Of a DNA stretch of 64,000 nucleotides, positions 22,881 to 45,428 are shown piece after piece. Numbering within the stretch: position 1 is the first letter of the stretch; every line of letters starts with the position of its first letter. The position numbers and the translations under genes were made by a program. The notes under the pieces are model-generated. The model was not told the DNA's origin. It saw nothing but the letters and a program-made list of their open reading frames with translations, and did not search any database. This DNA is from Candidatus Abyssobacteria bacterium SURF_17. GTDB lineage: Bacteria; Abyssobacteria; SURF-5. The stretch covers positions 1 to 64,000 of the forward strand of contig QZKI01000143.1 of NCBI GenBank assembly GCA_003598055.1, read 5' to 3'.

Positions 22881-23426
22881 CTAGGCAAGGCCGCGTTGGG
22901 GAATGACGTAGGGACCCTCGGGAATGACGGCTATTGCGCTTTCGCATGCTTCATTCGCAAGCGCACGTGAGACAGCATCTGTGACATTCGCAACTCGAGT
23001 AGCAAAGGTGAAGGGCCACTCGTCGTCGGCCAGGCCAGTCGAGAAGAGATATATCTTGCCTTTGCGCAACGCTTTCACGAGCATTTCCACTTCCCATTGG
23101 TCAACGACGAAGTTGTCCGGATTTGAGATGTGAGTCAGAAATTCGTCATAGGTACCGAATAGGGCCAAATCTTCGAGCATATGACGGAATTCGATGCTGC
23201 CAAGTCCCTGAGAACACTCTGCCGCGAGGATAATGCTCCCGCCGGGCCTGAGAATGTCAAGGGCGCCCACAAGTCCTTTGATGGCCTGATAGTAGGTGGT
23301 ATCGAGCGGATACCCTGCGGCCGTCGTCACGACCACGTCAAAAAACTCTTCGGAGCGTACCACGCAATATCGCTTGGCGAATGCGCACGCATGCTCGTGC
23401 GCAACTCTGTGGTCACCGAATGGCCG
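22881..23426 (-). pseudogene. C-terminal remnant of a LarA-type (DUF2088) nickel-dependent racemase family gene
   Basis: The frame encodes about 181 residues matching the C-terminal part of LarA-family lactate racemases: V-A-H-E-H-A-C-A-F-A-K leads into F-D-V-V-V-T-T-A-A-G-Y-P-L-D and Y-Y-Q-A-I-K-G-L-V-G-A, then G-G-S-I-I-L-A-A-E-C-S-Q-G-L-G. Full LarA is about 420 residues; the N-terminal catalytic half with the nickel-pincer lysine is missing. The homology begins immediately after the TAA of the TIR gene and in the same frame, so the two are separated only by that stop. A GTG at 23363 could start a shortened product of 160 residues. This is best read as a gene truncated by the arrival of the neighbouring island. 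Confidence 0.72.
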
Positions 23427-24611
23427 TTAACCTGCCGCGCCAGTGAGATGGTCCTCAAGTTTTGGACGAATCTGAAAGAGATGCCCCTCAGGCAGAAGCG
23501 CTTTCATTTCGTCACAGCAGCGACCATAACGGGCATACGAGCCGCAGCCATAGTCGCAAGCTGGTTCATGACAAACTACATAAAGCGATCTCTCTGTGCG
23601 GCGTCTCGAAAGTATCGATCGCCATTCCTTCACTTGCATCACAGGCTGGTTGACCGCCTTCAAGAACTTTTCTCCCTGGAGAACGATCACAACACGTGGC
23701 GCGTGACGCAGAATGGTTGCACGGAACTCAGAGAACAGAGGGCTATCCGCGCTGAGACCGGCATCTGGATCAATGGCGTTCGCGGCCAGCAGGGCAAGCT
23801 CGACCCACGGCTTTGTTTGTGCCCGCAGATAGGGCAGCACGGCATTCACTGTGAGATCGCCTCCGACACCTTGGGTCCGTGTGTCTAGCTCGCCAGGGAG
23901 AATCGTTACCGGATAATGGATCGCCTCGCGAAGGCGTCCAGCAATTGCCAAGTTGTTCGTAACAACGGGAATGCGAAGTCCGCTCTCGATGAGTTGGTCC
24001 GCAATGACAAGGGTCAGGGAACCTGAATCCAGAAGGATCCCGTGAATTTCTGGAAGCACGAATTTCTCCAAAACCAATCGAGCGATTCTCATTTTCGCTT
24101 CATAGTTTGTGTAGAGGCGAGAATCGTAGAAATCACCGTACTCCTCGATTGACTTTTCGGATGCGGAACCGCTTGAGACCACCTCGAGCAGCTTTTTCGT
24201 GGCAATAGAACGAGCGCTCTCACAGAATGTTACTGCTTTGTCCGTAACCTCTTGGAGACGCTCTCGATTGAATCGAATATATTCCGTGATTGAGGGAATC
24301 ATGCCTAGATCCTCAATGCCCTCTTCGACGAACGCAAGAATCGGTAATGCCAAGGCGTAAGCCATTCCAACCTCTGAGCTAATCCAGCTGCTTGTCATTG
24401 ACCCCGCCAAAGAGGATGGTGTGACGATGGCGACCAAACATGATGATTTCATTATTTCTGAACGAACCTTCACTGGGACTGGGCTCGGACTTGGTCGATC
24501 TGCGATGATTGGGGAAAGCCCAGCCGAACGCGCAATTGACTTGAAATAGTCGATCAGAAATTCGTCTTTCTCTGAGAAAGAACAACTGAAGAATGCTCTG
24601 ATCTCATTCAT
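23427..24611 (-). CDS. TIR domain fused to a DeoR-type ISOCOT sensor domain
   Basis: I do not know a named family with this layout. Residues 3-120 look like a TIR domain: strand A and box 1 (I-R-A-F-F-S-C-S-F-S-E-K-D), a BB-loop-like segment, V-A-I-V-T-P-S-S, and the helix with W76 and E80 (W-I-S-S-E-V-G-M-A), where Glu is the catalytic residue of NADase TIRs. Residues 174-325 match the C-terminal sensor of DeoR regulators: L-L-D-S-G-S-L-T-L, V-V-T-N-N-L-A-I-A, I-L-P-G-E-L-D-T-R-T, N-A-I-D-P-D-A-G-L-S. This fold binds sugar phosphates, and no DNA-binding HTH is present. The tail has Cys347, 352, 356, 365, 366 and His348, possibly a metal site. ATG at 24611 has GGGAG 5 bases upstream; an ATG at 24623 is also open. 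The 394-residue protein is probably cytoplasmic. My inference is a metabolite-gated NAD-cleaving or signalling effector. Confidence 0.72.
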   Translation of the reverse strand: MNEIRAFFSCSFSEKDEFLIDYFKSIARSAGLSPIIADRPSPSPVPVKVRSEIMKSSCLVAIVTPSSLAGSMTSSWISSEVGMAYALALPILAFVEEGIEDLGMIPSITEYIRFNRERLQEVTDKAVTFCESARSIATKKLLEVVSSGSASEKSIEEYGDFYDSRLYTNYEAKMRIARLVLEKFVLPEIHGILLDSGSLTLVIADQLIESGLRIPVVTNNLAIAGRLREAIHYPVTILPGELDTRTQGVGGDLTVNAVLPYLRAQTKPWVELALLAANAIDPDAGLSADSPLFSEFRATILRHAPRVVIVLQGEKFLKAVNQPVMQVKEWRSILSRRRTERSLYVVCHEPACDYGCGSYARYGRCCDEMKALLPEGHLFQIRPKLEDHLTGAAG

Positions 24612-24922
24612 ATTCTCTCCCATTCTGCGACATAGCGGGTGTACTCGTCACCCCATCCCGCTGAATCGCTAGGAGACTTTAACTCGGGGAATCGACGAAA
24701 TAACAAGAAAGACATGCAACGCCCTGAAAAAGGGTCAGGGCATAGACTTCTCCATGTTCGTGAACGAGAGCCAGTGTTTGGTCTCTTCTCCTTTCGGCGG
24801 CCTCCCATTGTCGGTCGTGCGACGCGGAGATAGCTAGGCTCGCAGAGCTTCTCCTGTGCACCGACGATGGGGTGTCTGGTCCTCACAAGAGCTCTTTTCT
24901 TCGCCGCTTGCGAGGGCACATG
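24612..24922. other. 311-base gap between the TIR-ISOCOT and RipA-like genes
   Basis: No convincing gene is seen. A 103-codon open frame on the minus strand (24919-24608) fills the gap but is rich in Arg and Pro, has no recognisable motif and lacks a good ribosome-binding site. The gap separates two genes on the same strand and could hold a promoter for the TIR gene or a decayed third component. Confidence 0.4.
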
Positions 24923-25468
24923 TTATTGTTGCGAGCATTTCATCATTCCTATGATCCTCATCCATGGAAACAAATAGACCACTAACATTACATACATGGT
25001 GATGAACAATCGTGGAACCCAAATCTCGACTTGGGTGAGCGGTACGTACTTCGAGGAATCCTTACCGCTACCCAGAGCCGCCCATTCGGCTCTGTACGGG
25101 GCTGTCGGGAGATGCTTTTCCATACGGTGGACTATATTGAATTTCTCATTGCTTAATTGGCGATACGATGCCACAAGCCGGTGCCAGAACACCGATACCA
25201 CGATTCCAGCAAATGGGATGACGAAGAGCAAACGCCTTATTTCCTCGGCTGTTTCCTTTGAACAGAGGAAGGCAATTGCCGCACAAAGGCCAGTATTGAG
25301 CGTGAGAAAGAAGGTGTTTGAGGATTGCCTTCGGTCTGCGAGTTTGTCCAAATAGCTCAAGTAGAGTTTGTATTGCTCTAAGTACGATTCCGAAGGTTCG
25401 CCCGGTTTCAGAATATCCGGCGGAACGTTAAAGAGAGCGTCATCGGCAGATGTATTGTCGCGCGCCAT
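24923..25468 (-). CDS. RipA-family-like small integral membrane protein
   Basis: The protein has 181 residues. A conserved-looking amphipathic N-terminal part, L-E-Q-Y-K-L-Y-L-S-Y-L-D-K-L-A-D-R-R (residues 30-47), precedes two membrane helices (about 52-69 and 79-98) and the motif S-Y-R-Q-L-S-N-E-K-F-N-I-V-H-R-M-E-K (101-118). P-Y-R-A-E-W (124-129), a short linker, P-L-T-Q-V-E-I-W-V-P and a third helix (152-170) follow. This pattern matches what is annotated as the RipA family of octameric membrane proteins. It also resembles SLATT-type membrane effectors of bacterial conflict systems. The start has AGAGG at 7 bases. Same-strand placement upstream of the TIR gene suggests a membrane partner or pore for that system; this is inference. 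Confidence 0.65.
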   Translation of the reverse strand: MARDNTSADDALFNVPPDILKPGEPSESYLEQYKLYLSYLDKLADRRQSSNTFFLTLNTGLCAAIAFLCSKETAEEIRRLLFVIPFAGIVVSVFWHRLVASYRQLSNEKFNIVHRMEKHLPTAPYRAEWAALGSGKDSSKYVPLTQVEIWVPRLFITMYVMLVVYLFPWMRIIGMMKCSQQ

Positions 25469-25602
25469 TGTTCAGCCTCTTGAGATTGTTCTTTGTCCAC
25501 TTGTGAATCTTGTCGTTGTACAAGGCTGTATTTGGTCTGACACACGCCCTATCGCTACGTCTGGCCTGTACAGACTTCATCAACGTCCGACAACGTAACT
25601 GC

Positions 25603-25845
25603 CTATCCAGTGGCCAGGCTTTTGCAAATCGCTTCGTCCTTTCGGAGCAGTTCAGAAAGCGTCGGGGTTAACAGCAGTGGACTTATTATAGCATAGCGGC
25701 CAAATATGTTCAACCCGTGGCGCCGAGAGTATTTGGCGACGGGGTCCTGAAGATAAGGCATCTCTCCCGTTCGAAAAACCGTGACTGCATCAGCTCTTAG
25801 CTCTATATCGAGCCCCTGCCGATCATACTTAAGTTTCAGTCTCAT
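25603..25845 (-). CDS. small hypothetical protein
   Basis: This is an 80-residue open frame starting at ATG 25845 with AAGGAG about 10 bases upstream. It begins M-R-L-K-L-K-Y-D-R-Q-G-L-D-I-E-L and contains V-F-R-T-G-E-M-P-Y-L and a C-terminal P-T-L-S-E-L-L-R-K-D. I recognise no family. The frame is open for another 120 codons upstream, but that part crosses the palindromic repeat at 25904-25976. A promoter-like sequence at 26014-26042 points toward it. It could equally be a decayed fragment. Confidence 0.3.
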   Translation of the reverse strand: MRLKLKYDRQGLDIELRADAVTVFRTGEMPYLQDPVAKYSRRHGLNIFGRYAIISPLLLTPTLSELLRKDEAICKSLATG

Positions 25846-25903
25846 CCTGCGCTCATACTCCTTGATGAATCTGTTCCGCGATTCGCGATTGGGGACACTC
25901 TTC

Positions 25904-25976
25904 TGCAGGTGCAAACTCATTCGCATGGTTTTTCGGCCTTTTTCACCATGCAAATGCGAATGAATTCGCACCTGCA
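25904..25976 (-). repeat. palindromic dispersed element, copy 1
   Basis: The arms TGCAGGTGC and GCACCTGCA close a hairpin in which CATTCGCAT-type words pair over about 25 bases. The loop has GCCGAAAAACC on the minus strand. The same arms and loop words recur at 45361-45428 on the opposite strand, so this is a dispersed element and not a local terminator. It lies in the largely gene-free stretch 25846-26242, which otherwise holds the two promoters noted here. Confidence 0.72.
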
Positions 25977-26013
25977 AAATTGCAGGACGCATTCTGATGA
26001 GGGCCACTCTTGC

Positions 26014-26042
26014 ATTTAACCATACATCTCTCCTGAAGTCAA
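26014..26042 (-). promoter_or_regulatory. sigma-70-like promoter toward the accessory island
   Basis: On the minus strand TTGACT (26042-26037), a 17-base spacer, then TTAAAT (26019-26014). It would transcribe through the palindrome at 25904-25976 and the small ORF at 25603-25845 toward the RipA-like and TIR genes. The -10 has two mismatches to consensus. Confidence 0.4.
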
Positions 26043-26098
26043 CAAGTTGCAGCGCCTCAAGACCACTTGCCGGCACTGCCCCCGGCACTGGCCGCCAG

Positions 26099-26127
26099 TT
26101 GAATGCGGTCGCCGATTGTGGTATCCT
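26099..26127 (+). promoter_or_regulatory. sigma-70-like promoter of mdh-alr
   Basis: TTGAAT (26099-26104), a 17-base spacer and TATCCT (26122-26127) lie about 115 bases upstream of malate dehydrogenase. The match is moderate. No other promoter candidate is better in this gap. Confidence 0.4.
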
Positions 26128-26242
26128 TTGAATGGTGTCAAGATTGGGTGATTTTGCCGCAGACCATGGCACAAGAGAGTGATTCTCGTTCCGAACGGAA
26201 AGACGACGCAATCCTAGCTATTCGGGTCCAGAGGAGGCTGAA

Positions 26243-45360: not shown

Positions 45361-45428
45361 GTAGGTGCGAATTCATTCGCATACGCATGCCGAAAAAAAC
45401 GGCGGAAACCATGCGAATAAACTCGGAC
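45361..45428 (+). repeat. palindromic dispersed element, copy 2
   Basis: GTAGGTGCGAATTCATTCGC and its partner around CATGCGAATAAACTCGGACC close a hairpin with a loop GCCGAAAAAAACGGCGG. The arms and loop match the element at 25904-25976 in inverse orientation. It lies in the gap before the tRNA gene. Confidence 0.7.

Follow-up and report, generated by a model that had tools for sequence, protein, structure and literature searches.

The 64,000-nucleotide stretch of DNA analyzed here (the window) contains an intact 394-codon open reading frame (23427..24611, minus strand) whose 394-aa product joins a TIR domain to the ligand-sensing half of a DeoR regulator, without a DNA-binding domain. This TIR-DeoRC fusion is genuine but very rare; a full-length homologue is encoded by G036, a genome from a different phylum. 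The model favored here, which is given about an even chance of being correct, is that the fusion is a putative self-contained TIR NADase gated by a metabolite and that it lies beside an orphaned gene for a membrane protein of the RipA-type octameric family (8xMP). In this model, the DeoR-type C-terminal domain would bind a phosphorylated sugar or a product of nucleotide breakdown, and the bound ligand would control both the assembly of the TIR domain and the cleavage of NAD. Infection or stress, signaled metabolically, would then lead to loss of NAD and, in turn, to growth arrest. The fusion would have arrived on a small foreign segment also bearing 8xMP, which would be the surviving half of a common pair, composed of a ThsB-type TIR and 8xMP, whose TIR gene was cut at the edge of the segment. 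The NADase activity of the fusion, its ligand, the direction of control, and its role in defense are all predictions of the model. If the model holds, a sensor taken over from a transcription factor would allow a ligand of the sugar-phosphate type to gate an NADase directly in bacteria, and the metabolite sensed by a bacterial TIR would be approachable at once through the known DeoR ligands.

The sensor and TIR domains of the fusion

An earlier note on this DNA, made from the sequence, had described a TIR domain fused to the DeoR sensor half and had proposed that the C-terminal part be compared with DeoR sensor profiles. This comparison identifies residues 169-319 (23655..24107, minus strand) as a DeoR C-terminal (ISOCOT-type) sensor, PF00455, with an E value of 2.7e-16 and a score of 60.3 bits (cut-off, 31.8). 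The best NCBIfam matches of the fusion are likewise DeoR/GlpR regulators, aligned beyond their helix-turn-helix. No helix-turn-helix was detected in the fusion protein with Pfam or NCBIfam, and in both members of the family the N-terminus is a TIR domain. The phosphate-loop motif DSGS.T, the VTN motif, and the invariant lysine 315 of canonical DeoRs are retained in the sensor, but its GG and DSS positions are altered, and it has a Cys/His C-terminal extension that is not present in canonical DeoRs. Thus, the fusion resembles DeoR/GlpR regulators in its above-threshold sensor and its retained ligand-loop motifs, whereas it differs from them in having a TIR domain where the helix-turn-helix stands. 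The C-terminal domains of known DeoR regulators bind sugar phosphates, and it is this property, together with the retention of the ligand-loop residues, that suggests gating by a metabolite.

The TIR domain occupies residues 5-115 (24267..24599, minus strand). When the fusion alone is compared with Pfam, TIR_2 is matched at an E value of 0.0068, which is under the cut-off, and nucleoside deoxyribosyltransferase at 0.046. A profile of the fusion family, compared by hhalign with an alignment of TIR proteins in which three members have TIR_2 E values of 5e-17 to 3e-22, gives a match with a probability of 98% and an E value of 1.6e-13 over columns 5-115, and the W...E helix is aligned in both. Furthermore, the nearest sequence relatives found in whole-genome searches include clear TIR_2 proteins (E 5e-17 to 3e-22). 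The putative catalytic residue, E80 (24374-24372, minus strand), is invariant in an alignment of 13 TIRs, in which it is the sole fully conserved residue. Both E80 and W76, which lies four residues ahead of it, are kept in the two fusion proteins; the W76/E80 helix expected of NAD-cleaving TIRs, to which the earlier note had drawn attention, is therefore present and conserved.

An AlphaFold model of the full protein, another check that had been suggested, lends weak support to the TIR assignment. Its mean pLDDT is 58, with a shallow alignment of 9 rows, and it stayed at this value because scans of viral contigs for DeoRs, meant to deepen the alignment, yielded three proteins. The N-terminal domain of the model is an alternating beta-alpha fold, and, at this pLDDT, plant TIRs, SARM1, TIR-1, Cat1, and SpbK are among its fold matches, as are flavodoxin-like proteins and BcmB. 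Among solved structures, no sequence relative of either the fusion or the 8xMP protein was found.

The match to BcmB bears on a different reading of the N-terminal domain, namely that it is a related N-glycosidase (a nucleoside deoxyribosyltransferase or a BcmB-like enzyme) whose substrates would be nucleosides or nucleotides and whose product would be sensed by the DeoR-type domain. The TIR and N-glycosidase families both use a Glu in the same helix, and the G036 homologue scores PF05014 at E 1.4e-4 compared with 2.2e-3 for TIR_2. However, the PF05014 scores of 14.3 bits for the fusion and 22.4 bits for the G036 protein fall short of the cut-off of 28.8, the nearest sequence relatives are the clear TIR_2 proteins, and the W four residues ahead of the E is a TIR-like feature. 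An N-glycosidase is accordingly considered quite improbable, and the domain is treated below as a TIR.

A family of two members

In the searches made here, the TIR-DeoRC family has two members. The G036 homologue is collinear with the fusion over its full length, with 47% identity over residues 5-381, and it begins at the same residue; in the window, GGGAGAG precedes the ATG at 24611 and provides a plausible ribosome-binding site. W76, E80, DSGS.T, VTNN, PGE, QGEK, K315, and C347/H348/C365 are common to both proteins. The G036 gene adjoins a glycosyltransferase gene and has ordinary neighbors, and its contig stops ~290 bp downstream of it.

Two motif scans covering ~85,000 species genomes, a method that would miss diverged members, turned up no further TIR-DeoRC protein; in the second of these, artificial decoy rows were put into the alignment solely to steer the choice of motifs. 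Similarly, whole searches of ~1,270 genomes, covering diverse relatives and two smaller phyla as well as samples of two large phyla, yielded no third member, with G036 as the sole find. Collections of plasmids, phages, and viral contigs returned either an ordinary DeoR regulator or nothing. Of the other genome matches obtained at the looser threshold, those inspected proved to be ordinary DeoRs or differently built TIRs.

A probably foreign segment within larA

The fusion gene lies within an inserted, probably foreign segment of ~2.19 kb (23418..25608, minus strand) that splits larA. In a related genome (G002), larA is intact and is located between mdh and gspC-gspD-gspE, and the split gene in the window is flanked by these same neighbors. 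A tblastn search of the whole window with the G002 LarA protein identified the 5' fragment (25609..25863, minus strand; LarA residues 17-93; 35% identity, E 4e-5), and the 3' fragment (22899..23417, minus strand; LarA residues 273-445) is 57% identical to G002 LarA and matches LarA_C, PF21113, at E 6.5e-23. The segment replaces ~180 codons in the middle of larA and contains a TIR gene remnant, 8xMP, a spacer, and the fusion, with a segment edge within ~10 bp of the fusion stop codon. GC3 is 0.53-0.57 for the fusion and 8xMP, compared with 0.60-0.68 for the neighboring genes, the larA 5' fragment being low too. Given the split larA, the intact larA in G002, and the lower GC3, the fusion and 8xMP are probably foreign, and the segment probably derives from a larger locus truncated at the 8xMP end. 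An open reading frame at 25603-26211 was rejected as a separate gene, since the 5' part of larA makes up its 3' portion. A 26-bp inverted repeat (25901-25979), 88% complementary with a 27-bp loop, lies upstream of the larA 5' fragment, and a related motif recurs a single time, near 45369. This repeat is possibly a small mobile or REP-like element.

The 8xMP gene (24923..25468, minus strand) encodes a protein of 181 aa and matches PF24838 at E 2.5e-40. Consequently, the three-helix protein of RipA type that had been noted upstream of the fusion on the same strand is indeed a member of this family; its model (pLDDT 75) has three long helices and adds a fourth, short one at the C-terminus. A fold comparison with this model gave nothing at an E value of 0.001 or lower, and no match to 8xMP was found in phage records. 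The 181-codon open reading frame is intact, AAGAGG precedes its ATG, and the protein carries the residues that are invariant across the family. Both it and the fusion gene have the coordinates and strand assigned to them earlier, each as an intact open reading frame.

Directly upstream of 8xMP, an intact TIR gene is absent; there is only the tail of a ThsB-type TIR gene, comprising its final ~34 codons (25458..25559, minus strand). This tail was identified with an HMM built from the TIR partners of 8xMP; it corresponds to HMM positions 96-129 of 129 (E 1.7e-7) and is the single match across the six frames of the window. The remnant runs into the 8xMP start codon, as in the usual overlap of TIR-8xMP pairs. 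Judged by its sequence, it is the tail of this 8xMP's own TIR partner, the remainder of which has been lost.

Between 8xMP and the fusion is a 311-bp spacer (24612..24922, minus strand) with no recognizable gene or promoter: no promoter-like site was seen, no convincing match was obtained in the fetched loci, a 103-aa open reading frame has no match in Pfam or NCBIfam, and one of 60 aa has no match in plasmids. By eye, the open frames of the spacer look gene-like (e.g., ...FPELKSPSDSAGWGDEYTRYVAEWERI), without any match. The spacer is possibly another gene remnant.

The truncated TIR gene, the broken larA around the fusion, and the ordinary surroundings of the G036 homologue are all consistent with the idea that the fusion belongs to a decaying fragment of a defense locus, or that it is a housekeeping signaling gene, with no present immune function in either case. 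Against this, neither open reading frame is truncated, each has a good ribosome-binding site and conserved residues, and a copy with 47% identity persists in another phylum. Decay or a housekeeping role is therefore regarded as improbable.

A TIR-8xMP module in bacteria and archaea

A survey of 36 8xMP loci (7 in whole genomes, 22 on plasmids, and 7 in viral contigs) provides a context for the remnant. In 24 of these loci, a TIR gene lies immediately upstream of 8xMP on the same strand, either overlapping it or separated from it by ~25 bp or less in 21 cases and by ~210 bp in the other three, which are haloarchaeal. These loci come from cyanobacteria, alpha- and betaproteobacteria, an actinobacterium, many haloarchaea, two further bacteria, and viral contigs; because several of the haloarchaeal copies are closely related, the 24 are not independent. 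The two-gene module is seen in L034, L035, L042-L044, L048, L049, L051, and L052 and in L062, L063, L065, L068-L070, and L072-L076; Polaromonas pH8NP2 and Synechococcus pIITB6_1 are examples of sources of a natural intact pair. The finding that a TIR precedes 8xMP in two-thirds of the loci indicates that the two genes form a real module, and the association of a TIR with this membrane protein that the earlier note had sensed thus holds in general.

Most of the TIR partners that were scanned score as ThsB_TIR, PF08937, and PADLOC-DB 2.0.0 calls the TIR partners ThsB-like; the same database has no model for 8xMP and gives no match to it. In addition, no description of the TIR-8xMP pair was found in the open-access papers searched. 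Thus, the survey reveals a pair that is widespread in bacteria and archaea and whose membrane component is without a PADLOC-DB match, and 8xMP can be regarded as a good candidate membrane effector for TIRs of the ThsB type.

The partners of 8xMP vary, since the gene upstream of it in the viral contig L076 encodes a TIR-TPR protein. In Leptolyngbya, the product of the upstream gene matches TIR_2 weakly. On a plasmid of Rhizobium leguminosarum (L047, 1-3435), a gene for an NB-ARC/WD40 protein abuts 8xMP; this locus was left out of the 24, and it suggests that 8xMP may also serve STAND-type sensors. Restriction-modification or helicase/nuclease genes are often found beside TIR-8xMP pairs. In Streptomyces and Embleya (L046, L050), a DUF4328-type membrane protein is encoded upstream of 8xMP, and a small Rossmann-like protein, which looks like SLOG by eye and has no Pfam match, follows 8xMP in place of the TIR. 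On four haloarchaeal plasmids (L062, L063, L065, L069; 125-562), a second, divergent TIR gene is located just upstream of the TIR-8xMP pair.

The relationship between the fusion and 8xMP

The earlier note had treated the fusion and 8xMP as a candidate two-gene system. This is not borne out: 8xMP has the tail of its own TIR, and no 8xMP was found anywhere in the 98%-complete G036 assembly, although the contig with the fusion stops ~290 bp beyond it. Consequently, the pairing in the window looks secondary, and 8xMP seems to be left over from another TIR-membrane-protein pair, a widespread one, rather than being the true partner of the fusion. Elsewhere, co-occurrence of the fusion with 8xMP stands at zero so far in a sample of one other genome; judged by the refuting condition of the earlier note, the two-gene system has thus failed to date.

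The alternative is that the two genes do function as a pair, in which the metabolite-sensing TIR would make an NAD-derived signal or touch 8xMP, 8xMP would disrupt the membrane, and the fusion would have been substituted for the lost ThsB-type TIR in a partner swap. The two genes are on the same strand of the same inserted segment of ~2.2 kb, 8xMP is intact with all of the family-invariant residues, and the partners of 8xMP in the 24 TIR loci vary, as the TIR-TPR protein demonstrates. An intact 8xMP despite the loss of its TIR is what use by the fusion would predict and thus counts against a solitary fusion. Furthermore, a search of the source assembly (92% complete) for a further ThsB-type TIR found none; therefore, 8xMP has been either orphaned or adopted by the fusion. 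However, the gene order, with 8xMP first and the fusion 311 bp downstream, is the reverse of that of the usual module and the spacing is wide, the TIR remnant directly upstream of 8xMP is that of a different TIR, and the sole other genome with the fusion is without 8xMP. A working pair is thus thought rather unlikely. The fuller version of this idea, that TIR-DeoRC has replaced the lost ThsB-type TIR and drives a membrane-disrupting 8xMP octamer in a Thoeris-like pathway switched on by a phosphorylated metabolite, is thought unlikely. The solitary, metabolite-gated NADase is retained as the favored model.

Comparison with known systems

TIR domains fused to sensors and systems composed of a TIR and a membrane effector are already known kinds; type II Thoeris is an example of the latter, and SpbK is a TIR NADase defense protein (PMC12847820). 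A DeoR-type sensor on a TIR, which the earlier note had called unfamiliar, was not found described in the open-access papers or the libraries searched, although absence from an open-access collection and from a 2023 defense database is not proof of novelty.

Thoeris consists of a ThsB TIR and a ThsA effector (types I, II, and IV). The fusion resembles it in that its TIR has a catalytic-type Glu, and the TIRs upstream of 8xMP elsewhere score as ThsB_TIR. In contrast, the fusion itself does not score as ThsB (its best PADLOC ThsB model gives E 0.038, and there is no PF08937 match), and no SIR2-SLOG, TM-macro, or caspase-like ThsA is seen beside it, its immediate neighbors being 8xMP and larA/gspC/mdh. 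Like the single-protein TIR NADases with fused sensors, the fusion has a TIR together with a second domain that is likely to control it, and the SpbK TIR is among the fold matches of the predicted structure; the difference is that the putative sensor of the fusion is a DeoR C-terminal domain. Finally, the 8xMP protein of the window is a clear member of the 8xMP/RipA family (PF24838), differing from the usual arrangement in that its upstream TIR gene has been reduced to ~34 codons.
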